Assembly: GCF_040448675.1 (NCBI RefSeq)
Contig: NZ_CP159289.1
Coordinates: 5,315,001 to 5,379,000 of the forward strand
Source of the DNA: Dyadobacter sp. 676
GTDB lineage: Bacteria; Bacteroidota; Bacteroidia; Cytophagales; Spirosomataceae
Length of the DNA: 64,000 nt
Direction: 5' to 3'
The translations under genes were made by a program, and so were the position numbers. The first letter of the stretch is position 1; every line of letters starts with the position of its first letter. The notes below the pieces were generated by a model. It was not told where the DNA came from, did not search any database, and was given only the letters and a program-made list of their open reading frames with translations. Shown one piece after another: positions 13,710-64,000 of this stretch.

Positions 13710-14612
13710 CTACGATTTGAGTAAAGTTGCGAACGCCCGCACCGGGAACGTTCCGACGCCCTTGAACCCTGGCGGAACCGCGCTGAACAGGTACCCGGAA
13801 GCCGGCAGTTTTTCGAGGTTGCACAAATGCTCGACGATCAGGATTTCGGCGCCGAGCAGAATGGTGTGCACGGGCCGGCTGTTGCCGCGGGTGTCGTCGA
13901 TATTATGGCTGTCGATGCCCACCAGCTTTACGCCGCAGTCGCGCAGGTATTCGGCTGCCTGGGCTGTCAGGAACGGATGATTTTCAAAATAGGCTTCGGT
14001 ATTCCAGTTTTTCGACCACCCTGTGCGTACGATAACCGCCTTGCCACGGATTTCGAGATTCCTGAAAAACCCGGTGCCGATTTCCGACACGCCGGTTGCG
14101 TCGACGGTCACTGCTTCCAGGTTTGCGAATGCGTCCAGTTCGACTTCCGAAAGGTCTTTCCCATGCCCGTAGCGGTGAAAAGGACAGTCGATGTAGGTGC
14201 CGGTGTTGCTTACCATTTCGATCTTTCCGATTTGAAATTCGGTGCCCTCCTCGTACCTGCCCCGGGATTCCTCCCGGCTGAGAAAATCACAAATGGCCGG
14301 GGCGGGAAGGCCTTTGTAGGTAACCAGCCCGTCAAAGATGGTATGGCTCAGATCGACCAGTCGTTCCGGCAACAGCTGGTCGATGGGCTGGCGCTTGTGC
14401 TTTTCCTGAATGTAGTATTTATTGAGGATACTGACTTTTCCGACCATCAGCAAGCGGAGGTCTTTTACAATATAATCGGCCAGTTCGGCATCGGAAATGG
14501 TTTCCCCGGCAATATCGAGCCGAAAATCCTGTCCCTGGATGCCGCCGCCGTTGGTAAACTCGATGTCAAAATCAAAAACTACCCTGTGATCCATTATGCG
14601 TTTGTCAAACAT
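13710..14612 (-). CDS. Cyclase family protein (kynurenine formamidase-like) with N-terminal extension
   Basis: A 300-residue protein. The C-terminal ~210 residues are a PF04199 cyclase: LVDLSHTIFDG, then SNTGTYIDCPFHRYGHGKD, which carries the HxGTHxDxPxH-like metal motif in modified form (N-TGTYID-PFHR), and VGIDSHNIDD. The first ~70 residues (FDFDIEFTNGGGIQGQDFRLD...LRLLMVG) are an added domain seen in a subset of cyclases. The start ATG overlaps the stop of the DUF1080 gene (ATGA), so the two are translationally coupled. It probably hydrolyses a cyclic amide or ester in the cytoplasm. Replacement of the first motif His by Asn may alter metal binding. Confidence 0.85.
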   Translation of the reverse strand: MFDKRIMDHRVVFDFDIEFTNGGGIQGQDFRLDIAGETISDAELADYIVKDLRLLMVGKVSILNKYYIQEKHKRQPIDQLLPERLVDLSHTIFDGLVTYKGLPAPAICDFLSREESRGRYEEGTEFQIGKIEMVSNTGTYIDCPFHRYGHGKDLSEVELDAFANLEAVTVDATGVSEIGTGFFRNLEIRGKAVIVRTGWSKNWNTEAYFENHPFLTAQAAEYLRDCGVKLVGIDSHNIDDTRGNSRPVHTILLGAEILIVEHLCNLEKLPASGYLFSAVPPGFKGVGTFPVRAFATLLKS

Positions 14613-40160: not shown

Positions 40161-40232
40161 GCACCCGTAGTTCAATGGATAGAATTATGGTTTCCGGTAC
40201 CATCGATAGGGGTTCGAATCCCTTCGGGTGCA
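40161..40232 (+). tRNA. tRNA-Arg (anticodon CCG)
   Basis: A 72-nt cloverleaf. Acceptor GCACCCG (40161-40167) pairs with CGGGTGC (40225-40231) and A40232 is the discriminator. The D arm has GTTC/GAAT, the anticodon arm ATGGT-TTCCGGT-ACCAT gives anticodon CCG (codon CGG), and the T arm has GGTTCGAATCC. CCA is not encoded. It has its own promoter and terminator and marks the left edge of the accessory region. Confidence 0.95.
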
Positions 40233-41747
40233 CTTGGAGGGATTTCTTCGTGAAATCCCTCTTTTTTATTGAAAATGAGTAGTTCTTTTTGCTTCATTTT
40301 CAATGTATTATGGGTGAGTAGTTCCATCATGGTAGGTGTTCGATAGGTGCCATTTTCATAGTAAAGATTGTTATCGAACACCAGAGAAATAACCTCTCTT
40401 TTTTTGCAAGCTGTTAGCACTGGCAAAAATTTCCGGAATATCGGTTAACAGGTGCAGGCTTCTTTTGATTTTCAAAGATGCTTCATTTTGGCCCTTACCT
40501 AACAAACCAATGGCCGCCTTCAGGCTGGTAATTTCGAATGTGTACTCTGAATGCCATCTCTGGTAGGTATCGCGTTTAATTTCATTTTTGATCCATTTTT
40601 CTTCGACGGTCAATAATTTTGCCTGGGTTTGCTCCAGAAGCTTTTTCTTCTCAGCCACAAGTAGCAGATTTGATTGGCGTTGCTTGTCAATCGTTTGCTG
40701 GCAGCTATTCATGACCGATTTCAAACGGGCGGCAGAAAGGCTCATTAAACTCAACGCAGCCAGTAACTGCTCATGGGCCTTTTTTGCACTGATGTTGTTG
40801 TGCCCGGTAAATTTACATTTGTAGTAGTAAAAGTATTTCCCCGATTTGCCACGAGAAGCTGCGCCCGTTAACGGTTGTCCGCAATGGCACCTGAGAAGTC
40901 CTCTTAGCGGAATTTCGTCGTCGATTACTGTTCTTTGTTTCGAGGGCTTTTTCATCTTGCGTTGAACCAACTGCCAACTTGCCCAGTCTATAATGGGTTC
41001 GTGCGTGGCAGGAAATAAACCTCCGGGATATTCTTTGAAAGGTTCTGCATACAGCATTCCTGCGTAGGCCGGATTTGAAAGGATTCTCTCGATGGCCATA
41101 TTTCCCTTCCGATCATGCCCCAGCAGACGCGCTTGCTTCTTGATCAGGTACAAAGGAACATTTTTAAGATAAGCCTCGAAGATATACCTGATAATTGGGG
41201 CTTCCCTTTCATCGATGACCAAACGCCTTTGTTTGCGTTCGCCTTCCTTTTTATATCCGAATGGCGCATGACTATATACATAGCGCCCCTCTTTTGCCTT
41301 AGCAGTATAAAGTCCTCCTCTTACCTTGATGCTTCTATTTATATTGTCCTCCTCAGCAAGGAGTAATTGCAGACCTGCCCTAAAAAAGCTTCCAGGAGTG
41401 TCATAGTCAAAAGTGATTCCTTCTGAGACGCTGACAACTTGAATATTGTATTTTCTCTGCAGGTTTTTAACCATGCTCATTGCTTCCCCTGCATCGCGGC
41501 TGAATCGGTCCAGTTGATCGACCAGTAAATAGTCGACATGCCTGAAATGTTTGGCAATGAACTGTTGAAGCTTGATGAAGTCCGGGCGATCGAAGGTTTT
41601 GGCGCTCTTGCCCCGGTCAATGAATGTGTCAACAAGTTCCACACCGTTGACTTTAAGCCACTGGTCGGTATACAGTTCTTGTCGTTCGATTGAGCTGTTA
41701 CTTTGGCCCACCTGGCTAAAGCGCAAATATCTGATTGCCCGTTTCAT
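40172..41747 (-). pseudogene. Serine recombinase, frameshifted near C-terminus
   Basis: A resolvase-type recombinase beginning MKRAIRYLRFSQVGQSNSS (catalytic Ser11) with DQLDRFSRD (Arg), followed by a Recombinase domain (APFGYKKEGERKQRRLVID) and a zinc ribbon (LLRCHCGQPLTGAASRG...YYKC) and a coiled coil. At T7 (40399-40405; A7 on the coding strand) the frame breaks after ANSLQKK. With one A fewer it reads SLQKREVISLVFDNNLYYENGTYRTP, matching the end of the second recombinase (LYYEKGSYRTP). Beyond that, its tail runs antisense through the terminator and tRNA-Arg, so the last ~20 residues are not native sequence. It would integrate or excise an element. Confidence 0.85.
40237..40267 (+). terminator. 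Terminator of tRNA-Arg
   Basis: A perfect 10-bp stem GAGGGATTTC (40237-40246) with GAAATCCCTC (40252-40261), 5-nt loop, followed by T6. Confidence 0.9.
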
Positions 41748-48265: not shown

Positions 48266-48531
48266 GCTTAGGGATATGCTCATTGTGCAATGTGAATTAT
48301 CTGATGTTCTACTGCAAGGTTACACTTCAACGGGCATTCGACATGCCTTTCCTTGCTTAGTCCAATCTTTCCCGAAGTTGACTGTTTTGATCAAAGACCG
48401 TTATGAACTGGTGCCTTTCCGGCAAGCGCGAAGCCATCACGTTTGCTGACATCGGTTGAGGCATAAAATTTGTGCATCAAGCCAAGATCGCTAATTCGAC
48501 CAGCCCCCACGAGACGGTGAACATCCAGACT

Positions 48532-48729
48532 ATGAAGATAGCTACGTATAACATCAACGGGGTTAACGGAAGGCTTCCGGTATTGCTAAGATGGTTGCAA
48601 CAGGCCAGGCCTGATATAGTCTGTCTGCAGGAATTGAAGGCTGTTCACGACAAATTTCCCGTCAGACACATTGAGCGGCTTGGCTATGAAGCGCTATGGA
48701 TCGGGCAAAAAAGCTGGAACGGTGTCGCC
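48532..48729 (+). pseudogene. xth: Exodeoxyribonuclease III, 5' fragment only
   Basis: From MKIATYNINGVNGRLPVLL through RPDIVCLQELKAVHDKFP to IGQKSWNGVA, the first ~66 residues match exonuclease III/AP endonuclease (the LQE Glu is a metal ligand). The remaining ~190 residues, including the His and Asp catalytic residues, are missing. At about 48,729 the sequence changes into a subtilase, so this is a recombination or deletion junction. Confidence 0.8.
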
Positions 48730-49920
48730 TTTCCTGCCAGCCATGCTAAATAATATCGCGGTCGGCGCCATACAAAACACTGGCGCCATATAGGACTACA
48801 GCGGAAAAAGGGTCACCTATGGCCTGCTGGCGCCATCCGGCTCACCTGATGACGGTGGCAACGTAATGACGACTGATCGGATGTCAACTGCGGGCTACGT
48901 ACCAAGCAATTACTTCGCAAATTTCGGCGGCACATCTGCTGCGCGTCCGCAGGTTGCCGGGGTAGCCGCATTGACGCTTTCTGTTAATCCTACGCCAACA
49001 GAAGTCCAGGTAAGAACGAAATTGCAACAAACAGCCATCGACATGGGACCGGGCGGTTTCGACAATTCCTTTGGCTACGGCCGAGTAAATGCGCTTGCAG
49101 CTGTTCAGTCTTCGTTGCCTACATCCTTCGTCTCCGGACCATCCGTGGTATGCCCTTCAGCGAGCTATTCCGTAACGAATATGCTTGCTGGGGCTACAGT
49201 AACCTGGTCGAGCAGCAATACCAGTATCCTTACCATCAATGCCCCTACAGCTGCAGCCACGCGGGTCGGAGATGGGCAAGCGACTATTACTGCAAACATA
49301 CAATACACTGCCGGTTGTACCCCATTTCGCGTGACCAAGACCGTCAACGTCGGCAAACCGATAATCAGTTTCACCGTCAATGGGCAGCCTTTCACTAACG
49401 GGTAGCTCTGTGCCGGACAGACGCATTATATCGACCTCGTGGGCCATGATCTTATGAATTCTTATTCGTGGTCATTACAGGCAGGGTCTAGTGCAAGTTT
49501 AAGCGGCAATGGCCCAAGCGCATCGTTCTCCGACTATAATATTGCCTGTTCCGGCATTAGTCTCGCTGCATCAAATTCCTGCGGTACAACAAATACAGGG
49601 CTATCCATCTGCACCAAGAACTGCTTTATGGCAGCTTACACCGTTTACCTAATCCGGCAAAGGATTATTTGAACATTACCTTTGAAGACACAAAAACACT
49701 GGCAGCCCTGCCAGAACAGATCATCCTTTACAGCGAGAAGTCTACTGCACCGGCAAGAAGCGTTTTGGTAAAAGGTACTTACAATCAAGGTGCCTTTAAA
49801 AACGGCAATACGATCGAATTGCCGGTTCGGGATTTACCACGCGGCAATTATTTTTTACATGTAGTACCGGGAAAAGATTCCGATCAAAAAACGGACAAAA
49901 TCAGGATAGTGCTCGAATAA
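48730..49920 (+). pseudogene. Subtilisin-like (S8) protease with T9SS tail, truncated and multiply broken
   Basis: Begins inside the catalytic domain: FPASHA, then after a one-base shift at the AAA 48748-48750, NNIAVGAIQNTGA. TAG at 48791 interrupts, then DYSGKRVTYGLLAPSG and FGGTSAARPQVAGVAAL (catalytic Ser) follow. A PKD-like region comes next. TAG at 49403 sits where Gln is expected (NG-stop-LCAGQTHYIDL). One missing C near 49648 shifts YPNPAKDYLNITF, the type IX sorting signal, which then runs to 49920. The catalytic Asp and His lie in the missing 5' half, so the protein cannot work. Confidence 0.82.
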
Positions 49921-53001: not shown

Positions 53002-53501
53002 TCAAACCGGCGCTTCAATAATGATGCGGCTGCCCAAGCTGCATTTGATAATACCCGCGTGTTTACTGACGTTGACCCACTCGGTTTGATGCCATCTTCT
53101 ATCTCGGGGGACAAAGTCCGCTTTGGGACCTTGCGTCCAATGAATTCAGCGGGCGCTTGATCCTGGATTTCATCACGGCAGCAAAACCAGTCGGCGCGGT
53201 ATGTCATGGCCCGGCTGCGTTGATCAAAGCTGCCGAGTTGCAGCCTGGTTTTTTGAGCGGAAAGCGGATTGCAGCTTTCACCAACACGGAAGAAACGCTG
53301 ACACTGCGAGCGGACAACGTGCCCTACAAATTAGAGACAAGGCCTAAAGAGCTCGGTGCGGACTTTCATAGTGCAACGCTCCCGTTCACAAGTCATGTAG
53401 AAACAGACGGTCTACTGGTAACTGGACAAAACCCGCTATCGGCCGGACCAACGGCCCGGGCGCTTATTAGCCTGCTTGAAGAACAGCGGGTGCATGCTTA
53501 A
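53002..53501 (+). pseudogene. DJ-1/PfpI family protein, 5'-truncated and frameshifted
   Basis: Reads FNNDAAAQAAFDNTRVFTDVDP and then, after one missing base near 53084 in a T run, GFDAIFYLGGQSPLWDLASN, continuing to VGAVCHGPAALI (the nucleophile-elbow Cys of the family) and a full C-terminus at 53501. An in-frame TAG at 52999 precedes it, and the first ~75 residues (with the conserved Glu) are missing. It was a class I glutamine-amidotransferase-like chaperone/glyoxalase. It converges on the glycosylase gene. Confidence 0.75.
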
Positions 53502-53503
53502 CG

Positions 53504-54283
53504 CTATTTGTATAGCTTCTGCTCATCTGTATAATAGGTCTTACGGCCACCGACAGTGGCCGTAAGAATTTCAGCCCCGCCAGGGCTCCTTTCTTTGTTG
53601 GGATTATGAATCTCTAGAAAATCCCTGATTTCACCACTAATAATATCCGGGTGCTTTTTGACAATAGCATCTTCTGCACGCTTCAGAACCTGGCCAATCA
53701 CCGAGCTCAACTTCCTTACAACATCATCAGGAATTTTACCGGCGATAGATTCGGGATTGATCTTCGCTTTCCAAAGTATCTCATCGGCATACGCATTGCC
53801 TATCCCGGCGATGACTTTCTGATCCATCAAAATGGATTTGATCTTCGCACGACTCCTTTCAAGCTTCGCGGTCAGCCAACTGGCGGTCAGCTCATCTGAA
53901 AGTGCATCGACGGCCCGGCTTGACTCGGGATTCAACAGTAAGTGCGCTGCCTTTTGAAAGTCGGTTAAGTAGAGTGTGTTGTTATCGAACCGGAGCTCTG
54001 CGATTACGTGTTTCGGTGGCTCCGCATTGCGAGCCTCTAGAACCAGTTTACCATGAAGCATTAGGTGCATAAGTAATTGGGCGTTCTTGGCAAAGTCGAA
54101 GCATAGCTGCTTTCCAACTCTGCGCACTTCGCGAAGCTTTTTGCCGGAAAGCACCTCGTTGAGCTCCTTTTTAGAAACCTTCACTTTCGAGGTATGCAGC
54201 AAGGTAACCTTTTCCAGCTTGCTGCCTTTCAGTGTCTTTGTCAGGTTTCTGGCAAATACCTGCAGATCTGGGAGCTCGGGCAT
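53504..54283 (-). CDS. Fpg/Nei-like DNA glycosylase without classical zinc finger
   Basis: A 259-residue base-excision enzyme. It begins MPELPDLQVFARNL: Pro2 and Glu3 (the catalytic pair of Fpg/Nei) are present, with Asp at position 6. The helix-two-turn-helix is VIAGIGNAYADEILWKAKINPE. At the C-terminus the expected CxxC...CxxC finger is replaced by GGRKTYYTDEQKLYK, with no Cys, as in zinc-less members. It removes oxidised bases. It is 2 nt downstream of the DUF3606 gene and belongs to the leftward repair group. Confidence 0.9.
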   Translation of the reverse strand: MPELPDLQVFARNLTKTLKGSKLEKVTLLHTSKVKVSKKELNEVLSGKKLREVRRVGKQLCFDFAKNAQLLMHLMLHGKLVLEARNAEPPKHVIAELRFDNNTLYLTDFQKAAHLLLNPESSRAVDALSDELTASWLTAKLERSRAKIKSILMDQKVIAGIGNAYADEILWKAKINPESIAGKIPDDVVRKLSSVIGQVLKRAEDAIVKKHPDIISGEIRDFLEIHNPNKERSPGGAEILTATVGGRKTYYTDEQKLYK

Positions 54284-54285
54284 AG

Positions 54286-54471
54286 CTACTTGCTTTGACG
54301 TTTGAGATACTCTTCGACTTTCGACCTTTCATTGCCGACGGCCTTTATCGCATCCAAAACGTCTTGCCTGCTAACACCGTGCTCCTTCGCTACGTAATCG
54401 AGTTCATACTCTTCATCGGCGGCGATCCGGTTACGGTCGCGGAAGTCTCTTTTTGATTTATCGTCTGCCAT
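54286..54471 (-). CDS. DUF3606 domain protein
   Basis: A 61-residue soluble protein: MADDKSKRDFRDRNRIAADEEYELDYVAKEHGVSRQDV...VGNERSKVEEYL, the usual length and pattern of DUF3606 (KxxxGxxDRxRI...YEVxYxxxKxGVSxxxL). Function is unknown. Two nt separate it from the glycosylase, so they are cotranscribed. Confidence 0.88.
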   Translation of the reverse strand: MADDKSKRDFRDRNRIAADEEYELDYVAKEHGVSRQDVLDAIKAVGNERSKVEEYLKRQSK

Positions 54472-54491
54472 AACTTAAGTTTTTATGTCCA

Positions 54492-54504
54492 ACAATTGAC
54501 ATCG
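54492..54504 (-). promoter_or_regulatory. Possible third copy of the repair-island operator
   Basis: ACAATTGACATCG resembles the ACAATTGGTATCA repeats of the lexA-imuA region (10 of 13 bases), 21 nt before the DUF3606 start. Weak evidence; it could be chance. Confidence 0.3.
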
Positions 54505-54545
54505 GCGAATGTTCAGGCAAAAATTGTGCTAATGGTCAGCCATAG

Positions 54546-56576
54546 CTATCTATGCAAGAAAAATAGTAGTTTCTCCGCGTTCCTAGCGGCGATTTTCGCG
54601 TCCAGGACCGAAGAAAATATATCGCCTTTCTTTTCCAGCCGTTTGAATATGGTGTCCTTGTTGTAAGCATAGCGATCGAGCGTTGGCGTAACTTCCCGCC
54701 AGTCCAGCGGGGTGCTTACCGTAGGCTGGTGGTAAGGACGAATGCAGTAGGGTGCAGCCAGCGTGTCGGCATAGTCATTCTGATTGGCGTCTATATAGAC
54801 CCGGTCACCACGTAGGCTGATCGTTTCGCTTCTGGTACTGATCGCCTTAACAAGTGGGTGGATTTGATCGGCCAGAGCGTTAGCAATGATACGGCTCTGT
54901 GTGAAATCGAACCCCTGGCAAGGAATATAAATGTGTAACCCTGTCTTACCCGAGGTTTTGATCAGCGATTTTACTTTATGGCTCGCCAACACGTCTTTTG
55001 CTGCCAAAGCCACATCGACGGCTTTTTTAAATCCAGCCTCTTCCGAACCTGAATCCCCTTTGCTGACGGTCGGGTCCAGGTCCAGCCAAATGTAATCCGG
55101 AGTCTCCGGCGCCTCGGTCCTGGATGCCCATGTGTTGATATCCACGCAGCCGCAATCGACCATAAACAGCAGCGTTTCCAGGTTGTTGCACACCAGGTAG
55201 TCAATCCGGTTTCGTTTTCCTGCTTTGGCGACTCTCCGCTTATCGGTAAAAATGTCTGCACAAGCCGGCTGGCGGTTCTCCATGTCTTTTATAAAGGTGG
55301 TCGGACCGCCGGCATGGGTAAGCTTTAAGTTGAGCGACTGCGGTCTATCGGCAAGATGTGGTAAAATGTAATGAGCAACCCGATTGTAATACAGTGCCAG
55401 GTCACCCTTAGCCACACCGGACCATATTTCACGCTCAATGTCATGTAATTGTATCCTGCAGTGCTCAAGGTCAAAGTCTGTTACCTCCTTGCCTTCATAG
55501 CTTTCGTCGACGCGCCGCCAGTTACTGCCTTCATTCAGGTAGGTTTTCTTTTTGGCTGAGGCTGTTTTCTGTTTACGGGTTGACACCCGATTCTGCGTTT
55601 CTTCTGCTTCGGCCTCGATAATCTCTGTCTCTTTGGGCACCTCACGGACGACATCCTTAGCCTTTTTATCTTTACGAAAACCAAGAAAGGTTGCGGGCTT
55701 GCGAATCCTGCCGGACTTTGTCCAAGTAGCAAACTCAAAATTTGCTACCAGCTCCGGGCGGACATAGTGCATAACCGCGCCCTTTGTATCCAGGATAGGA
55801 TTTGCAAAGGGCGATTTGTCTATTTCCAAAGCCTTGAGCTTTTTTAGGATTTCGGGCATTTCTTTGTCCTTGTAGCCTCCACCGCTGCGGCCTATCCAGA
55901 TAAACTTGCCGTTTTCATAGGCACCGAAAAGCAAACTTTTGAAAGATCGTGATTTTGTCGATTCCGCCCAGGCACCGATGACAAATTCCTGCCGCTTCCT
56001 TGTCGGAATCTTCAGCCAGTCGTTGCCCCGTTCACCCTGGGCGTAAACACTGTCTTTTCTTTTGGCGACAATCCCTTCCAGGTTTTCTGCCAATATCTGT
56101 TCATACAAAGCTTTGCCATCATCGAAGCTCTCACTGAATTTCAATACCGGCTGATCCTTGATAACGGACCTTAATAGTTCCTTTCGTTTGGTCAGCGGCA
56201 AGTCCATTAGACTTTTACCGTCCATCCACAGCAGGTCAAAGACACAATAGCTGATCGGTGTGTTGTGGCCATTGTACTTTTGCAGCGCATCAAAATCTGG
56301 TTTGCCCTCCTGGTTAAAAACAACAACCTCGCCATCAATGACTACGTCATGTTTAAGCGCTTTAAGCGCCTGCTCAACCGGTGGATACTTCGCCGTATAG
56401 TTGAGGCCGCTTCGCGAGTCCATCCGGACTTTTTCCGACTTTACGTAGGATACGATCCGGTAGCCGTCCCATTTCACTTCAAAAAGATAGTCAGGTAAGC
56501 TTGGCACCTCCTTTACCAGTGTGCATAACATTGGATCGATGCGTTCCGGCATTGGGTCTTTCTTGCGCTTTACCAT
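54546..56576 (-). CDS. ligD: LigD-type ATP-dependent DNA ligase/polymerase
   Basis: A 676-residue two-domain protein. The ligase comes first: nucleotidyl Lys in EVKWDGYR (Lys35), VIDGEVVVF, EGIVAKRKDSVY and WLKIPTRKRQE, then the OB domain. After a basic linker (~335-360) comes the archaeo-eukaryotic primase-type polymerase, with IDYLVCNN, DYIWLDLDPT (metal Asp pair) and SGKTGLHIYIPC. The 3'-phosphoesterase domain found on many LigD proteins is absent. It would act in non-homologous end joining, but no ku gene is in the window. Its start overlaps the end of the HicB-like gene by 7 nt. Confidence 0.93.
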   Translation of the reverse strand: MVKRKKDPMPERIDPMLCTLVKEVPSLPDYLFEVKWDGYRIVSYVKSEKVRMDSRSGLNYTAKYPPVEQALKALKHDVVIDGEVVVFNQEGKPDFDALQKYNGHNTPISYCVFDLLWMDGKSLMDLPLTKRKELLRSVIKDQPVLKFSESFDDGKALYEQILAENLEGIVAKRKDSVYAQGERGNDWLKIPTRKRQEFVIGAWAESTKSRSFKSLLFGAYENGKFIWIGRSGGGYKDKEMPEILKKLKALEIDKSPFANPILDTKGAVMHYVRPELVANFEFATWTKSGRIRKPATFLGFRKDKKAKDVVREVPKETEIIEAEAEETQNRVSTRKQKTASAKKKTYLNEGSNWRRVDESYEGKEVTDFDLEHCRIQLHDIEREIWSGVAKGDLALYYNRVAHYILPHLADRPQSLNLKLTHAGGPTTFIKDMENRQPACADIFTDKRRVAKAGKRNRIDYLVCNNLETLLFMVDCGCVDINTWASRTEAPETPDYIWLDLDPTVSKGDSGSEEAGFKKAVDVALAAKDVLASHKVKSLIKTSGKTGLHIYIPCQGFDFTQSRIIANALADQIHPLVKAISTRSETISLRGDRVYIDANQNDYADTLAAPYCIRPYHQPTVSTPLDWREVTPTLDRYAYNKDTIFKRLEKKGDIFSSVLDAKIAARNAEKLLFFLHR

Positions 56577-56866
56577 ACGTCGTCCTTTGAGATATTTAGC
56601 GTATCTATAGCGTATTGAGCTATGTCATCTGAGATGCTCGCGTTTTCTATACGCTCGCGCAGGTGTGCTTCCCAATCATTCATTGCGGCCTCAGCCGTGT
56701 TACCGCAACCAAATATTCCTTCCTGGGGATCAGGGCCGAGCAGGCAACAGAAATCCGTCCCCTCTCGCCAAATAACCGGTCGCAGTTCCTTTACCCGATG
56801 TGACAGGCCTTCCGATTCAAAATCGACGGGAACCTGCATTTCCTGTGGTATATCCATCTGTTTCAT
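56570..56866 (-). CDS. HicB-like small protein upstream of ligD
   Basis: A 98-residue protein: REGTDFCCLLGPDPQEGIFGCGNTAEAAMNDWEAHLRERIEN resembles a HicB-type fold (product GCG-T.eeAm.dwe). The second half is helical and acidic. The stop lies inside the ligD start, giving a 7-nt overlap and translational coupling. There is no HicA toxin next to it. Whether it is a solitary regulator or a LigD accessory protein is open. Confidence 0.65.
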   Translation of the reverse strand: MKQMDIPQEMQVPVDFESEGLSHRVKELRPVIWREGTDFCCLLGPDPQEGIFGCGNTAEAAMNDWEAHLRERIENASISDDIAQYAIDTLNISKDDVW

Positions 56867-57049
56867 AACTAGCTCATTTTAGAATGAAAACAATACTGGC
56901 ACATCTTTGTTGTGATGCAACAAGCGTACCAGTCCAAGACCTTTAATCCGGAGGTTCGTATCTATTAAGTCAACATTCCTCAGGCGATGTCAACTCTTGT
57001 ATTTCTGGAACACTTTTTAACTTCTTCTACTTACGTTTAAAGGACTAAT

Positions 57050-57358
57050 ATGCTGCTACTCCAAATGCTATTGCCAATCAAGGATGAGAAGGGCGATCCT
57101 TTCCCAGGACACTACTTTGCAGACCTTCGGGAAGAGTTGGCGACCAAGTTCGGCGGGATAACGATTTATAGCCGCTCACCTGCCAAAGGTCTTTGGAAAG
57201 AATCAGGCAGCTCTCTTGTAACAGATGAAATGATCATTTACGAAATATTGATGCAGGAAGTAGACTTACCTTATTGGCAAGGACAAAAAATGAGGCTTCA
57301 AGAGCTGCTGCGTCAGGATGAGATCTTGATGCGGTACCATGAAGTAGCCACGATATAG
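57050..57358 (+). CDS. Conserved small protein of unknown function
   Basis: A 102-residue soluble protein: LPIKDEKGDPFPGHYFADLREELATKFGGITIYSRSPAKGLWKE...DEMIIYEILMQE. The pattern (LREEL.ekFGG.T.ysr.PAkGlWk) looks like a compact alpha/beta domain, and I recall similar short proteins in other bacteria without a known role. No signal peptide or membrane segment. It converges on the AlkB gene within the repair island. Confidence 0.7.
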   Translation: MLLLQMLLPIKDEKGDPFPGHYFADLREELATKFGGITIYSRSPAKGLWKESGSSLVTDEMIIYEILMQEVDLPYWQGQKMRLQELLRQDEILMRYHEVATI

Positions 57359-57364
57359 AGCTCA

Positions 57365-57964
57365 TTAAACATGCGTCTTTCTAAATGTCAGATTGATCCG
57401 GGCGGTCATAGGAGTACTTGATTTCGCGATCCTGTGCTCCCAATATTTTTGAAGATCGGCTTTCATGAGTAATAGAGAGCCGTGTTCGAGCGCAATGGAA
57501 TACCGCTGGCTATGATTGTCCTTACTCCTGAAGTCGAAATTGCGTACCTGTCCAAGGCTCACCGAGGCAATATCGGTTTTGACGCCAGGGATTGTGTCCT
57601 TATCAGCGTGCCAGGCGACACTATCGTTACCGTCCCGGTAATAATTTAGTAGCACGCCATCAAACCGGATGCCGGTCACAACCATGATCCTTTGCCTGAG
57701 TGATTGCAGTTCCGCGGTCATTGGCCTCGGTGTCCTGACATCATTCTCCCTGATCGGCCTCGGTCCATACCAGGCGCAAAGGCGCGGCGTCACAATCTCT
57801 TTGTCATACATTATCACTTTATGTTGTTCCCAGGGGACTGTTGTTAAGAAGAGCTTCAGCAGCCTGCTTGCCTCGCTCTCATTGATAAAGCCCGGTGTAT
57901 ATTGCATTAAATGCTGCGGCAGCCGGAGCTGCTGTTGATCATCAAATAGTTTGAACTGCATCAC
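57365..57964 (-). CDS. AlkB-like Fe(II)/2-oxoglutarate dioxygenase
   Basis: A 199-residue enzyme of DNA alkylation repair. The iron site is WHADKD (His-x-Asp) with a distal His in YWEHRIAKS, and RINLTFR carries the 2-oxoglutarate-binding Arg residues. RLCAWYGPRP and GVLLNYYRDGNDSVAWH are the usual substrate and core strands. It demethylates alkylated bases. Its ATG overlaps the stop of the LexA-like repressor (ATGA), so it is under the same promoter and translationally coupled. An RNA- or protein-directed AlkB homologue is less likely in this context. Confidence 0.92.
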   Translation of the reverse strand: MMQFKLFDDQQQLRLPQHLMQYTPGFINESEASRLLKLFLTTVPWEQHKVIMYDKEIVTPRLCAWYGPRPIRENDVRTPRPMTAELQSLRQRIMVVTGIRFDGVLLNYYRDGNDSVAWHADKDTIPGVKTDIASVSLGQVRNFDFRSKDNHSQRYSIALEHGSLLLMKADLQKYWEHRIAKSSTPMTARINLTFRKTHV

Positions 57965-58776
57965 TTCTCTACCTTTTCTTCTATTTTACTTAATCGCTTC
58001 AACACCTCACTTAACGTATGGGATATGTGTTGAACATCAGCAACCGGCTCCGGAATCGCCTTGGACTGATAGCTGTGGTACTTCCAGATTTCAAGCACTT
58101 CTTTAATTTCCACCTCATAAGGCTTGTATTGCGGATTGAGGGATTCCAAAAGAAGTGATCTCTTTTCAGCATTAACCGTTACTTTTTTGAAAACAAAGTC
58201 CTGCTCGCCTTTGAGAATGACGATGCATAAAGTTCCGGCCTTTATCGCTGTCCAATCCTCCGCAAACTGACAGAGAACATCTGCACCCTCGGGCAAGGGC
58301 AGCATCGAATCGCCTGATGTCGGAAACATCCTGAACGTGCCTGAGGGAAGGTTAGGAAAGGAAAACTTAGGCAGCGCAGCAATATATTCCGGGTTCGCAT
58401 GCCCGTCACGGTATCCCGCCTTGGCCTTCACCGGCACATACTCAACATTTTCCTTATTGGCTTTGTCGACGGTGATCGCAAGTATCCGCAGATTACTTCC
58501 GGCCAGGTAGACATCGTTGCCCGCCTGAAGGTCCCGTAGCTTCAATTCCCCAAGCTTGGAGATATCTATCCGCATCAGCGTGTCGATGCTAAGCCGGAAA
58601 TAGTCAGAGAATTTGAAATAATCCTCCGGCTGCGGGGCGGCTGTCCTTCCGGATTCCAAGGCATGTAATTTCACCCGCGTCATAAAAAGCTCGTCAGCAA
58701 GCTCTTGCTGCGTTTTTCTCTTTCGCTCCCGGAGAAATTTAATGTTCTGTGCAAAAAAATATTTTGGAGGATTCAT
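57961..58776 (-). CDS. LexA/S24-type repressor with XRE helix-turn-helix
   Basis: A 271-residue regulator. Residues ~10-65 are an XRE HTH (NIKFLRERKRKTQQELADELFMTRVKLHALESGR). After a linker comes an S24 peptidase fold: VKAKAGYRDGH supplies an Ala-Gly cleavage site, TSGDSMLP the catalytic Ser, and the VILKGEQDFVFKKV region the Lys. A short coiled coil ends the protein. It should self-cleave upon RecA-ssDNA activation and derepress its targets. It is divergent from imuA, with two direct repeats in the gap, and coupled to AlkB. Confidence 0.9.
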   Translation of the reverse strand: MNPPKYFFAQNIKFLRERKRKTQQELADELFMTRVKLHALESGRTAAPQPEDYFKFSDYFRLSIDTLMRIDISKLGELKLRDLQAGNDVYLAGSNLRILAITVDKANKENVEYVPVKAKAGYRDGHANPEYIAALPKFSFPNLPSGTFRMFPTSGDSMLPLPEGADVLCQFAEDWTAIKAGTLCIVILKGEQDFVFKKVTVNAEKRSLLLESLNPQYKPYEVEIKEVLEIWKYHSYQSKAIPEPVADVQHISHTLSEVLKRLSKIEEKVEK

Positions 58777-58786
58777 CGAGTTTAGC

Positions 58787-58823
58787 TACAATTGGTATCA
58801 TTAGTTTGTTACAATTAGTATCA
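58787..58823. promoter_or_regulatory. Paired operator candidates between the repressor and imuA
   Basis: TACAATTGGTATCA (58787-58800) and TACAATTAGTATCA (58810-58823) differ at one base and are 23 bp apart. The first is 11 nt before the repressor start and the second 24 nt before the imuA start. They are the best candidates for sites of the LexA-like protein. Confidence 0.7.
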
Positions 58824-58847
58824 AAGTTAAAGTAAAATTGTGATGCG

Positions 58848-59591
58848 ATGGAAACTGCGAAGAAAAAAAATGAGCTGATTGCCAAGCTGCGGAGTGAGAT
58901 TCTTTCGCTGCAAGGTTTCCGCCCACCTTCACCAGGGGGCAGCCATACCAATTTAGGCTTAGGTCCGATCGAAAAGGCTTTCCCGGGCGGTGTTTTTCCA
59001 ACCGGCGCAATCCACGAATTCATCAGCAGTCTGCCAGAAGAGTCGGCGGCTACTACCGGCTTTATGGCGGCATTGGCTGGTCGGCTCATGAAAACAGACG
59101 GCATGTGCGCCTGGATCGGCACCAAACGAAACGTCTTCCCTCTAGGGCTTTCTCCGTTTGGCGTAGCCGCCGACAGGATCATCTTTGTTGACCTCAAAAG
59201 GGACCGCGATCTGTTGTGGGCGCTTGAAGAAGCCCTAAAATGCGACGCACTTTCTGTGGTGGTTGGCCAGATAAAAGAGTTGAACCTCACCGAATCACGC
59301 CGCCTTCAGCTGGCTGTGGAAGAAAGCCGGGTCACCGGACTCATCCATAGAGCTAACCCACGTATAGCCACCGCCGTTGCAGCGGCCTGCAGGTGGCAGA
59401 TAAAACCGGTACCCGCGAAGCCCGTGGGTGGACAGCTCCCCGGTGTTGGTTATGCCACCTGGGATGTTTCCGTCCTCAAAATCCGCAACGGCGAACCGGG
59501 CAGATGGCGCATCAATTGGGCAGAAGACCATTTTGAGCATATAACCGAAACACAGCAAGTTTCTCAGGAACACCTACTACAAGTCGGATAG
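58848..59591 (+). CDS. imuA: ImuA (RecA-like mutasome accessory protein)
   Basis: A 247-residue protein with a RecA/SulA-like fold. GLGPIEKAFPGGVFPTGAIHEFI is the family's N-terminal strand, MCAWIGTKRNVFPLGLSPFGVAADRIIFVD the central block and VVVGQIKELNLTESRRLQLAVEES the following helix. The Walker A loop is degenerate (PEESAATTG), as expected for ImuA. It brings RecA-type function to damage-induced translesion synthesis. It is the first gene of imuA-imuB-dnaE2; 2 nt separate it from imuB. Confidence 0.92.
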   Translation: METAKKKNELIAKLRSEILSLQGFRPPSPGGSHTNLGLGPIEKAFPGGVFPTGAIHEFISSLPEESAATTGFMAALAGRLMKTDGMCAWIGTKRNVFPLGLSPFGVAADRIIFVDLKRDRDLLWALEEALKCDALSVVVGQIKELNLTESRRLQLAVEESRVTGLIHRANPRIATAVAAACRWQIKPVPAKPVGGQLPGVGYATWDVSVLKIRNGEPGRWRINWAEDHFEHITETQQVSQEHLLQVG

Positions 59592-59593
59592 AG

Positions 59594-61094
59594 ATGAAAC
59601 GGTATGTGGCCATATGGTTCCGGCATCTGCTTACAGATCGCGAGCTGCTCAGAAGGCCCGAGCTTGCGGGAGAGCCGTTTGTGCTCGCTGCCAAGCAGAG
59701 GGGACGCATGATCGTGATGGCTTCCAGCAGTATCGCCGAGAAGGCGGGGGTAGTAACTGGCATGGTGGTCGCCGATGCGCGTGCCGTGCTTCCGAAATTA
59801 ATAGTAATTGACTATGATCCTTCGATTGAACAGAGCCTTCTGACAACGATTGCCGAATGGGCGATCCGTTACACGCCGCTTGTGGCATTGGACCTGCCCG
59901 ACGGGCTGATCCTGGATGCGACCGGTTGTGCGCATCTATGGGGAGGCGAAACGCCATACCTAAAAGACATCATGGGCCGCCTGAAAACGTCTGGCTATGA
60001 TGTACGCGCCGCGATGGCCGACACGATCGGAGCTGCATGGGCTATGTCCCGGTTTAGCCGGGCTTTCCCTATTATCGCTCCCGGCGGACAAATGGAGGCT
60101 ATTATGCCACTGCCGCCCAATGCGCTCAGGCTACCGGGTGAAGTCGTAGAGAAGTTGCATAAGTTGGGCCTGTATCAAATTAAAAGCTTCATTTCAATGC
60201 CACGGCCGGTGCTCAGGCGCAGGTTTGGGCAAATCATGCTTGATCAATTAGGAAAAGCGCTTGGCCATGTCCATCAAGGATTTATGCCCGTACAGCCTCT
60301 TGAACCTTTCCAGGAGCGCCTACCAAGCATGGAACCGATCCGCACGGCAACGGGCATCGAGATAGCTCTCCAAAAGCTGCTTGAAAAGATGTGCACCAGG
60401 CTTGCAGCCGAGGATAAAGGACTTCGGCAGGCCATTTTAAAATGTTACCGCTTAGATGGCGAAATCAGGCAGGTCGAGATTGGAACCAGCGGCCCTTCGT
60501 GCAGTACAGCTCACCTGTACAAGCTGTTTGAACTTAAAATTCCAACTATTGAGCCGGCGCTAGGTATAGAGCTATTCGTACTCGATGCCCCGGTGGTCGA
60601 GCCCATGCCAGCAGCCCAGGAAGCACTATGGAACCTGAGCAGCGGCAATAAAAAAGGTGGCTATCGCCGAACTGCTGGACCGCCTGGCAGCCCGGGCCGG
60701 CAGCGAGGTGATACACCGGTATCTTCCGGCAGAACATCACTGGCCGGAGCGCTCAATAGTGGAAGCCTCATCTCTTGAAGACCATCCGCAAACTTATTGG
60801 CGCACAGACCAGCCAAGGCCTGTTGAGCTTTTGGCCAACCCCGAACGAATTGAGGTGAGTGCGCCAGTGCCGGATTATCCGCCTATGGTTTTCCGCTACA
60901 AGGGCACGGTGCACAAGGTAAAGCGAGCCGATGGCCCTGACCGCATTGAACAAGAATGGTGGCTTTCCGACGGATTGCACCGCGACTATTACCTGGTTGA
61001 AGATGAAAACGGAAACCGTTACTGGATATTCCGCCTGGGGCATTATGGAGATGATCATAATCCTGATTGGTTCCTCCACGGCTTCTTCGCTTAA
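59594..61094 (+). pseudogene. imuB: ImuB (inactive Y-family polymerase), frameshifted at A6
   Basis: A 499-residue protein. The Y-family core is present but lacks the catalytic acidic residues: MKRYVAIWFRHLL replaces the D-x-D strand, and LILDATGCAHLWGGE lacks the SIDE motif, as in true ImuB. A beta-clamp-type peptide QEALWNL lies at ~345. Right after it, the A6 at 60650-60655 is one too long; with five A the reading is SSGNKKVAIAELLDRLAARAG and continues to FLHGFFA at 61094. It bridges DnaE2, ImuA and the clamp. The break would remove the C-terminal DnaE2-binding part. Confidence 0.88.
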
Positions 61095-61106
61095 AAAGTA
61101 TTTGCA

Positions 61107-64000
61107 ATGAGATACACTGAACTACAAGTGACCACCAATTTTAGCTTTCTTAGGGGCGGCTCGCATCCTGAGGAACTGGTCGAGCAGGCTGGTCTGTTGG
61201 GTTACGATAAAATTGCTATAACAGACCGCAACACACTCGCTGGAATCGTTCGGGCACATGCTGCCGCCCGTGACACCAAATTACAGATCATCCCGGCGGC
61301 TCGCCTGGACCTGATGGACGGCCCCAGTTTACTGGCATATCCGACAGATAAAGAAGCCTATACTCGCTTGTCAGCCCTGCTCTCCAAAGGGAACCTGAGG
61401 ACGGAGAAAGGAAAATGTGAGTTGTACAGGCGTGATGTTTATGAGCATGCCCAGGGTATGAAATTCGTTGCAGTTTCACCGGATTGCCTCTCGTCAGGCT
61501 ATAAATTTGAACCGGGATTTGAGACTGCGCTGAAGGATTATCGCTCCGAACTCGGCCAGGACCTGTACCTTTCAGCGTGCCGCTCGTACCTGGGAACCGA
61601 TCACAAAAAGCTGTTCAGGATCTCAGAGCTATGTGAAAAGCTTGGCATCCCCATGATCGCAACTAATGATGTCTACTACCATCACCCCGAGCGCCGCCAG
61701 CTGCAGGATGTTGTGACGTGCATCCGCGAAAAGTGCACGATATACGATGCAGGCTTCCGCCTTCATCAAAATGCTGAGCGCTATCTAAAAGACCAGGCGG
61801 AGATGCTACGCTTATTCCGTAATTACCCGGACGCGATCCGGCGTACGCAGGAAATAGCCGAAGCATGCACTTTTTCCTTGGATAGCCTGAAATATGTCTA
61901 CCCGGAAGAGATTACGAGCGAAGGCCGCACGCCGCTGGAAGAACTTACCTTTTTGGCCTGGAAAGGAGCACGCGACTTCTATGGCGAGCCGTTACCTGAA
62001 AAGGTGGTAAACGCCATCAACCATGAATTACGGTTTGTCGAGGAAATGGACTATTCAGCGTATTTTCTAACAGTATATGATATTGTCCGTTTCGCCCGCG
62101 AGCGCGGCATCCTTTGCCAGGGACGCGGATCGGCCGCGAATTCCACCGTATGCTTCTGTCTGGGAATTACTAGTGTCGATCCAACGAAGTTCGATTTGCT
62201 CTTTGAGCGGTTTATATCTTCGGCTCGAAATGAACCACCGGACATAGACGTGGATTTTGAGCATGAGCGGCGCGAGGAAGTCATTCAATACATCTATGAG
62301 AAGTATGGTCGCGACCGCTCGGCTATTGTGGCTACTGTTACGCAGCTACACCAGAAAGGAGCCATCCGCGACGTCGCAAAGGTAATGGGGATGTCAGTGG
62401 ATGCTATTAACAAGCTTTCCAGCTCCATTTGGGAGTTTACCGATGAATGGTTTGAGGGTAAGCGGATTTCAGATCAGGGTTTTAATGCAGACGATCCTCA
62501 TTTAATTAAAACTCTTGATTTAACCCGTCAGTTCATGGGCTTTCCTCGGCAGCTTGGCCAGCATACAGGTGGCTTTGTGATCACCCAAGGAAAGATTACG
62601 GACCTTTGCCCGATCCTGAATGCCCGAATGCCGGGCCGCACAAACATCGAATGGAACAAAGATGACATTGATGCGCTTGGCTTTCTCAAAATTGATGTGC
62701 TTGCCCTGGGTATGCTCACCTGTATCCGCAAAGCGTTCGACCTTGCTAAGTTGCATTACGGGCTCAATCTCACGCTGGCCAATATCCCGCAGGACGACCC
62801 GGCAGTCTATGAAATGATCGGCCATGCCGACACTATCGGCGTGTTCCAGATTGAGAGCCGTGCACAACAATCAATGCTACCACGGCTAAAGCCAAAGGAC
62901 TTTTATGACCTGGTCATAGAAGTAGCGATCGTGCGGCCTGGACCGATCCAGGGTGATATGGTGCATCCCTATTTGCGACGCCGGAACGGCGAGGAGCCTG
63001 TCGAATTTCCTTCCAAGGAGCTGGAAGACATTTTGGGAAGGACGCTTGGGGTACCACTGTTTCAAGAACAGGCAATGAAAATTGCGATTGTAGCCGCAGG
63101 TTTTACTCCTACAGAGGCAGACAAGTTGCGCCGCAGCATGGCAACTTTCAAACTTAGCGGTATGGTCACCCAATTTGAAAAAAATTGGTTGACGGCATGA
63201 CCGGTCGCGGTTATACGGAAGAGTACGCAAGGCGTATTTTTAAGCAACTAGAAGGCTTTGGCAGTTACGGCTTCCCGGAAAGCCATGCGGCCAGCTTCGC
63301 CTTACTGGTCTATGTTTCCTGTTGGCTCAAATACTATTACCCGGATGTGTTTTGCGCTGCTCTGCTCAACAGCCAGCCCATGGGATTTTATCAGCCGGCG
63401 CAGATAGTTGGCGATGCGCGAAACCACGGGGTTGTTGTTCGCCCGGTAGATGTAAACCTTTCCTATTGGGACAACACCCTTGAAGAGCAGGATGGCAAAT
63501 ACCGCGCAGTGCGCCTGGGATTTCGCCAAATAAAAGGTATCCGTCAGGAGGACATGGAACTGCTGGTGAGTGGAAGAGTAACACCTTATAAAGCCATTCA
63601 TCACATAAGGGATGCCGGTGTGTCGCAGGCGGCATTGGAAAGACTCGCGGATGCCGACGCCTTTCGCTCAATGGGCATGGATCGCAGGAAAGCTATGTGG
63701 GAAGCCACCGCACTTTCTGATCGTCCGATGGGCATATTTACCGGCCATCAATCAGCAAGCGATTTCGAAGAGCCTGTTTCGCTTCCCAAATTGTCTTTGT
63801 CAGAGCACGTCGTTCAGGACTACGCTTCTATTGCTCTGTCGCTTAAGGCACATCCCGTGAGCTTTGTCCGCCAGCAGCTTACCGCAAACTTTGTCACTTG
63901 CAACAGCGATCTTTCTAAGTTTAAGGATGGTATGATCATCAGAGTGGCTGGTCTTGTCCTGGTACGCCAAAGGCCGGGCACCGCAGGTGGCGTATGCTTC
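61107..64000 (+). pseudogene. dnaE2: Error-prone DNA polymerase DnaE2 (ImuC), frameshifted at A7 and cut by window end
   Basis: A C-family polymerase alpha-subunit homologue. It begins MRYTELQVTTNFSFLRGGSHPEELVE (PHP domain). The palm catalytic Asp residues are in PPDIDVDFEHERREEV and KIDVLALGML. At 63178-63184 the run of seven A is one short; with eight, the frame continues QFEKKLVDGMTGRGYTEEYARRIF and is open to the window edge, with the OB region (VIRVAGLVLVRQRPGTAGGV-like) at the end. It performs damage-induced mutagenic synthesis with ImuA and ImuB. It begins 12 nt after imuB. The gene continues past 64,000. Confidence 0.92.

Follow-up and report, generated by a model that had tools for sequence, protein, structure and literature searches.

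A putative self-regulated SOS cassette with AlkB and a candidate twin operator in a repair-rich region of a Dyadobacter chromosome

Genes and gene units of the repair region

The stretch of DNA analyzed here, referred to as the window, comprises 64,000 nucleotides of the chromosome of Dyadobacter sp. 676 (G000:C1:5315001-5379000), whose genome of 7.28 Mb forms a single contig (completeness 95.3% despite the one contig) and has its closest named relatives in Dyadobacter. At its right end, a putative LexA-type repressor gene coupled to alkB is divergently transcribed from imuA-imuB-dnaE2, and the gap between them contains two palindromes, a candidate twin operator, which are the main subject of this report (Table 1). 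Five gene units were read from the sequence: repressor-alkB (−), imuA-imuB-dnaE2-D166-SRAP (+), P98-ligD (−), DUF3606-fpg (−) and P102 (+). The original prediction had regarded this region as one mobile damage-response package ending at 64000. Profile searches recovered the Fpg/Nei, DUF3606, LigD, AlkB, LexA-like, ImuA, ImuB and DnaE2 proteins of its gene list, which lost only a HicB label, whereas its right boundary had to be moved, as D166 and SRAP prolong the plus-strand unit and a dnd cassette lies beyond.

Table 1. Features of the window and its right flank, with positions counted from the first nucleotide of the window.
Feature	Position	Strand	Basis and remarks
tRNA-Arg(CCG)	40161-40233	+	Conserved synteny stops at 3' end
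ExoIII fragment	48472-48753	+	Pfam Exo_endo_phos match limited to the N-terminal part; related islands have an intact gene of this kind
Subtilase fragment	48866-49405		
DJ-1/PfpI fragment	53157-53501		
Fpg/Nei-type glycosylase without zinc finger	53504-54283	−	Pfam Fapy_DNA_glyco, H2TH; alignment; no operator
DUF3606 protein	54286-54471	−	61 residues; 2 bp upstream of fpg; Pfam PF12244 7.9e-17
LigD	54546-56576	−	Ligase then polymerase domain; profile search; TIGR02776 above cut-off; no operator
P98	56570-56866	−	98 residues; 7-bp overlap with the ligD start; beta-beta-beta-alpha core in the predicted model; no operator
P102	57050-57358	+	102 residues; widespread family; no operator
AlkB-type dioxygenase	57365-57964	−	Pfam 2OG-FeII_Oxy_2
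Putative non-canonical LexA-type repressor	57961-58776	−	Pfam HTH_31/HTH_3 and Peptidase_S24
Operator O1 (candidate)	58783-58801		TTGnTA-N7-TAnCAA type; 11.3 bits; alone at chance-hit level
Operator O2 (candidate)	58806-58824		25.6 bits; top site in the 76 kb scanned; also among the nine exact matches to the pattern in the genome (7.28 Mb)
imuA	58848-59591	+	NCBIfam ImuA 2.2e-17, under its cut-off; order kept in relatives
imuB	59594-61094	+	Pfam IMS; two frames, break near 60650 (A6)
dnaE2	61107-64000, on to ~64339	+	Pfam DNA_pol3 domains, HHH_6; two frames, break near 63178 (A7)
D166	~64369-64869	+	Uncharacterized protein directly after dnaE2
SRAP	~64878-65675	+	After D166

The AlkB-like and LexA-like identities proposed earlier were confirmed by the Pfam matches (2OG-FeII_Oxy_2; HTH_31/HTH_3 and Peptidase_S24). 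The repressor has an N-terminal helix-turn-helix (HTH) of the CI/Cro type and a C-terminal S24 peptidase domain, which is the architecture of a non-canonical LexA. Among 11 aligned sequences, G121, S157 and K197 were invariant and A120 nearly so; we take Ser157, Lys197 and the Ala120-Gly121 pair to be the residues of self-cleaving S24 proteins. The stop codon of the repressor gene overlaps the start of alkB as TGATG, and this coupling is retained in D. fermentans JDP9 (G404). By sequence, the nearest solved relatives of AlkB were human ALKBH3 and then ALKBH2. Its WHAD and EHR residues align with ALKBH3 and supply an HxD...H motif, presumably the marker of an AlkB-type 2-oxoglutarate (2OG)-Fe(II) dealkylase; the NCBIfam AlkB equivalogs also matched the protein, but below their cut-off.

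The plus-strand unit has the mutasome gene order imuA-imuB-dnaE2, and a single frame break interrupts both imuB and dnaE2. One uninterrupted frame encodes ImuB in 58 of the 59 loci compared and DnaE2 in 53 of 55 (four further loci were cut by locus ends, and the island locus of G404, with its truncated imuA, lies outside both counts). The sole broken ImuB and both broken DnaE2 copies, one in the island and one in a second, core-type imu locus, belong to the source genome. In the island, the breaks coincide with runs of six and seven A (A6, A7); the core dnaE2 break is not in a long homopolymer, and dndD of the same genome is also frame-broken. Since broken ImuB and DnaE2 were confined to the source genome and dndD is broken as well, the breaks in imuB and dnaE2 are most likely assembly indels. 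D166 was modeled with a predicted local distance difference test (pLDDT) score of 88, but found no match in Pfam and no useful match in a fold search of the PDB. SRAP proteins shield abasic sites.

Twin palindromes before imuA, the repressor gene and alkB

The two palindromes lie 23 bp apart in the 71-bp gap between the S24 and imuA genes. They were scored with a matrix built from the gaps between S24 and imuA in 15 relatives, the window locus being excluded, and the spacing of the two sites in the training loci was 23 bp in 14 of the 15 and 24 bp in the other. O2 scored 25.6 bits, compared with a maximum of 21.7 bits when the scanned 76 kb were put through 20 mononucleotide shuffles. Within 53504-64000, a strong operator was found only between the repressor gene and imuA.

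Pairs of sites of at least 9 bits occurred 64 times at a spacing of 23 in 112 loci (2.14 Mb), and no other spacing between 12 and 60 yielded more than three. When the second copy of a D. chenhuakuii plasmid locus (L094) was dropped, 62 twins remained (56 distinct), and all 62 were located at most 330 bp before the start of an S24, imuA, imuB, dinD, alkB, f16 or SRAP gene. They preceded imuA/S24 in 28 cases, imuA alone in 16, dinD/imuB in six, imuB in six, f16 in three, and SRAP, dinD and alkB in one each. Loci chosen because of P98, P102, core LigD or the tRNA flank contained no twin. The background amounted to seven matches above 13.5 bits in 340 kb of sequence whose retrieval had other grounds. 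The twin before SRAP (G064; coordinates of L008 and L038 compared) also faces a UmuD/UmuC-type unit. The twin was also found in a locus from another family of the same order (L112), the S24 protein of which is 59% identical.

At core-type imuA genes, a site above 13.5 bits was found in all 15 fetched loci, none of which had served for training, and a twin in 13 of them. The core locus of the source genome has a single site before imuA (L004 8206) and a pair at 14433/14456 between imuB and a Bro-N (DinD-like) gene, which we assume to be dinD. The same threshold was passed before none of 18 D166 genes and none of 29 dnaE2 genes, as expected if both follow imuA in one unit.

Several other arrangements were observed at these loci. 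In a number of core loci (L004 8248-16020, L032, L034-L037, L068, L073, L086 and L087), approximately 4-7.5 kb of other genes separate imuA from imuB-dnaE2, and several of these split loci keep an operator at both halves. A 46-residue imuA remnant in G120 (L043 9987-10124) still has a complete twin operator. The uncharacterized 175-residue protein f16 (L025 6115-6642; also L026 and L067) heads an f16-f10-SRAP run with its own 23-bp twin.

AlkB of the window's own type occurs in 12 other genomes (59-68% identical). A site above 13.5 bits preceded alkB or dinD-alkB in nine of these, a 12.4-bit site in two and none in one, and in nine of the 12 genomes alkB is divergent from imuB, either directly or with dinD between them. 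Four of the 16 imu loci from outside the family have AlkB opposite imuA. The proposed link of alkylation reversal to the mutasome was well supported: alkB is coupled to the repressor gene here, stands beside imuB or opposite imuA elsewhere, and shares the operator. By position and operator, AlkB is a well-supported candidate member of an operator-controlled damage set. In two of the loci outside the family (L098 8057-9399 and L104), a 164-residue protein (with a Cdd1 domain in L098) and an 86-residue uncharacterized protein precede AlkB, all opposite imuA.

Neighboring repair genes, small proteins and genomic setting

The LigD of the window matched no nuclease domain in the Pfam and NCBIfam profile search, and no Ku gene accompanies it: the only Ku match of the genome, at G000:4009421, is 1.36 Mb away and adjoins a polymerase-only LigD match. 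The glycosylase had been described as zinc-less, which direct reading and alignment bore out, as it has a single cysteine and the four-cysteine zinc finger is absent. Operators were sought at the true starts of these genes from −300 to +90 with the threshold of 13.5 bits; for LigD the true starts were needed since, in most relatives, the match to the shorter LigD of the window begins inside the gene. No site passed the threshold at the 14 starts of LigD genes or gene pieces from 12 loci (best 9.2 bits), at six ExoIII starts (best 6.6), six Fpg starts (best 6.6), five DUF3606 starts (best 7.9), six P98 starts (best 5.6) or ten P102 starts (best 13.3). A single operator for all units was rejected on the copies examined.

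P98 and P102 matched no Pfam or NCBIfam family. P98 had 30 relatives in a sequence search, and its model (pLDDT 90) resembled HicB and double-stranded RNA-binding domain structures weakly (best E-value, any chain, 0.58). The HicB-like label given to this protein did not survive: there was no Pfam or NCBIfam HicB match, the resemblance to the HicB N-domain was weak, and no separate hicA-sized open reading frame (ATG-started, at least 30 residues, 56401-57400) lies beside it, so that a HicB antitoxin was rejected as a reading. The P102 profile collected 201 relatives, with Xanthomonas and Chloroflexota entries among the 120 listed. In three Dyadobacter loci (L076, L078 and L079, near 6-11 kb), P102 was seen by eye near small single-domain response-regulator-like genes, which hints at a general stress role for this family.

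We examined 48 genomes of the genus, the source included, and found ImuA in 41, a LigD-type match in 45, an AlkB match in 40, P98 in seven and P102 in eight. Full-length ImuA was found in 57 places, and the surroundings were fetched for 40 of them and for the truncated copy of G404, the other 17 being mostly lower-scoring. Within about 10 kb on either side, where the contig allowed, the 24 S24-type imu loci contained DnaE2 (24), ImuB (23), D166 (17) and SRAP (14), and far fewer held LigD (four), AlkB, Fpg, P98 and P102 (two each) or DUF3606 (one). Over the same span, the 15 core-type loci had AlkB in five, and S24, D166, SRAP, LigD and Fpg in none. Outside the source locus and G404, none of the four of five P98 copies (L081-L084) and none of the eight of eight P102 copies (L074-L080) that were fetched had imu genes within 10 kb; in G397, the contig with the two P102 copies also carries an imuA gene 20-25 kb away. 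The two families thus occur without an imu neighborhood and were rejected as parts of the island, and the proposal that the small proteins were new package parts fell with their co-occurrence, P98 and P102 being found beside S24-imu in only two of the 24 loci.

The AlkB-P102-P98-LigD arrangement is common only to the source genome and G404, where ligD and imuA are truncated in the matching locus; this 2.9-kb block shows 88% DNA identity between the two genomes, and a conserved core stretch beside tRNA-Arg 83%. A set close to that of the window was found on a circular D. chenhuakuii plasmid of 94,622 bp (NZ_CP099631.1), typed as non-mobilizable by MOB-suite, yet with an annotated relaxase gene. 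Approximately 22 kb of it encode two Fpg, DUF3606, LigD, ExoIII, SRAP, ThpR, S24, ImuA, ImuB, DnaE2 and D166. Like the window, it has S24 divergent from imuABC-D166, with Fpg, DUF3606, LigD and SRAP close by; unlike the window, it has an intact ExoIII, ThpR and an f16 gene preceded by a twin operator, and its LigD is 36% identical to that of the window and has an extra N-terminal part. The ExoIII fragment of the window is 67% identical to the plasmid ExoIII over 72 residues. AlkB, P98 and P102 have no match anywhere in the D. chenhuakuii genome (G135). Elsewhere, SRAP, LigD remnants and Fpg lie within 10 kb of the S24-imu cassette in G417, a 168-kb contig of G397 carries LigD and ExoIII some 55 kb away from imu, and LigD blocks are on contigs other than the imu contig in G051 and G104. 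The idea that the repair genes are conserved neighbors therefore stood in part: such blocks recur beside S24-imu, once on a plasmid, but seldom, with the full set only in the source strain and a partial one in G404.

To the left of the repair genes, 40.2-53.5 kb contains two large serine recombinases and truncated genes, in agreement with the recombinase- and remnant-rich region described previously. Alignment to 10 relatives stops within 9 bp of the 3' end of tRNA-Arg (9 bp past it in one relative), and the following 116 kb was not found behind this tRNA in the 10 relatives, except for scattered short matches. The 3' end of tRNA-Arg is thus a likely insertion point, judging from these alignments. 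Mobility, as originally proposed, has its support in the near-equivalent set on the D. chenhuakuii plasmid; for the window copy, the synteny break and the two serine recombinases were seen, but no attachment (att) repeat was found in the 116 kb searched. A dnd-type cassette follows SRAP outside the window (~66059-75965 in window coordinates; L003 10060-19966), with DndC, a frame-broken DndD/PbeC, a DndE-HerA fusion and two HATPase proteins, and DndA on the opposite strand. A single operator-like site of 10.4 bits (TTGTTACTTTGGGTATCAG), which has no twin and may be due to chance, was noted 49 bp upstream of dndC at 66010 (L003 10011).

Relation to known systems and interpretation

Non-canonical LexA proteins of Bacteroidetes have been described, in the parts consulted of a 2021 paper on SOS control, as S24 repressors with dyad-N5-dyad operators in their own promoters and a predicted control of imuABC and SRAP in several species (PMC8565304). 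The repressor of the window resembles them in its CI-like HTH and S24 domains, its position beside error-prone polymerase genes and its palindromic operator; the verified site of E. anophelis, TTAC-AAATT-GTAA, and the Dyadobacter palindrome share a TAC-N5-GTA core (PMC8565304). The 76 kb scanned contained no CTAA-N5-TTAG and no exact TTAC-N5-GTAA, and GGA-N5-TCC occurred 31 times but never between S24 and imuA. The sections consulted leave Cytophagaceae homologs unassigned to either motif cluster, report diverged operators, and mention neither TTGnTA-N7-TAnCAA twins 23 bp apart nor AlkB, both of which distinguish the Dyadobacter locus (PMC8565304). We have provisionally classed the repressor by analogy as one that would work like a Bacteroidetes non-canonical LexA whose operator has diverged.

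A mutasome with a local LexA had been taken as an established kind of cassette, and the core of the window, an S24/HTH repressor divergent from imuA-imuB-dnaE2, agrees with this. Like the lexA-imuA-imuB-dnaE2 cassettes, for which the consulted parts of PMC3765255 already give SRAP as a neighbor, and lexA2-imuABC of P. putida (via PMC5261740), it joins a local repressor to imuA-imuB-dnaE2; unlike them, the repressor is divergent and of another class, alkB is coupled to it and D166 follows dnaE2. The term AlkB is absent from the text of PMC3765255, and a search of the literature at abstract level, to which subscription papers were mostly closed, gave no report of the twin operator or of AlkB with imuABC in Bacteroidetes. 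ImuC of Pseudomonas is described, in the portion consulted, as sharing in alkylation-damage tolerance, mainly when other functions are missing (PMC5261740), which makes a joint use of AlkB and the mutasome plausible.

Taken together, the locus is probably an SOS cassette that regulates itself, familiar in its overall kind but with AlkB as an additional member, and with two divergent units under a twin operator. The S24/HTH repressor would bind both palindromes between its own gene and imuA, as two dimers across both promoters, and thereby repress repressor-alkB and imuA-imuB-dnaE2-D166-SRAP. Upon DNA damage, RecA filaments would provoke its self-cleavage, and both units would be expressed. The residues of self-cleaving S24 proteins and the published behavior of the family make two-dimer repression with RecA-stimulated release the simplest account. 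AlkB would then reverse N-alkylated bases, ImuA, ImuB and DnaE2 would copy past the remaining lesions, and SRAP would shield abasic sites; D166 may have a role of its own. LigD with P98, Fpg with DUF3606, and P102 would be separately transcribed cargo of a repair-rich, recombination-prone neighborhood, and LigD or Fpg may answer to other regulators. The genes, their couplings, the paired sites and their conservation are read directly from DNA, whereas we infer repressor binding, RecA-induced cleavage, induction and the action of each enzyme.

Several observations weigh against this account. Because imuA or AlkB was the reason for fetching most loci, the count of twins is biased, and near copies inflate it. 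The single palindrome is barely above a backwards control in whole genomes (exact matches against control: 9/6 in G000, 6/3 in G403 and 16/14 in G398), so that the signal is carried by the pair and its spacing; visual inspection of eight of the nine matches in G000 placed none upstream of damage genes except the two at imuA. The core imu loci of the genus carry operators, yet none of the 15 has an S24 gene in the fetched stretch, and at least one further regulator must therefore read the same code. The adjacency of S24 and alkB is confined to the source genome and G404, the four AlkB-imuA pairs outside the family lack the 23-bp twin, and the assembly breaks imuB and both dnaE2 copies, in the island and in the core.

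Could these genes, with LigD, Fpg and the small proteins, nevertheless be one mobile package, induced and working jointly? The near-equivalent plasmid set and the LigD-containing blocks of several genomes speak for it, as do published contexts that join SRAP, Ku, ATP-dependent ligase and mutagenic polymerases (PMC3765255, in the parts consulted). However, no operator precedes LigD, ExoIII, Fpg, DUF3606, P98 or P102 in the copies examined, the full set is present in the source genome only and partially in G404, Ku is 1.36 Mb distant, and P98 and P102 are not island-specific, all of which makes a joint package quite unlikely. At the other extreme, the region may be a mere accumulation at a tRNA-adjacent hotspot, in which imuABC and the repressor form the only true association and AlkB is there by chance. 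Such an origin would fit the nearby recombinases and remnants, the synteny break at tRNA-Arg, and how seldom LigD, Fpg, P98 and P102, or AlkB next to S24, are met again, but AlkB recurs beside imuB with an operator in the genus and opposite imuA outside the family, and the TGATG coupling is retained in G404; we consider this reading unlikely.

A decaying locus, in which imuB and dnaE2 are truly frame-broken and this strain no longer has a working mutasome, would explain that both genes are broken, that truncated genes lie close by, that the core dnaE2 break is outside a long homopolymer and that imuA is truncated in the matching locus of G404. This too has a low probability, as both island breaks coincide with poly-A runs (A6, A7), the source genome also has interrupted core dnaE2 and dndD genes whereas relatives with complete genes are intact, and the assembly is one contig yet only 95.3% complete, as indel errors would give.

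With the self-regulated cassette retained, the region is neither a random list of repair genes nor a single package, but a mutasome cassette of known kind with AlkB as a well-supported candidate partner, a candidate operator code and recurrent loose repair cargo. The new element here is the putative code, TTGnTA-N7-TAnCAA palindromes in pairs 23 bp apart. It offers a concrete candidate motif for Dyadobacter (Cytophagales, Spirosomataceae), in a setting where the consulted parts of PMC8565304 place Cytophagaceae repressors in no cluster, and its rigid 23-bp spacing lets members of the regulon be read from sequence. Its prediction is that alkylation reversal and mutagenic bypass would be switched together. 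D166 replaces the small proteins of the original prediction as a candidate part and is better backed by conservation. It is conceivable, if somewhat short of an even chance, that Dyadobacter has a damage regulon written in this twin-operator code, with AlkB as a partner of ImuABC ('reverse first, bypass what remains'), spread by plasmids and islands together with its own repressor, and with D166 as a new part of the mutasome.

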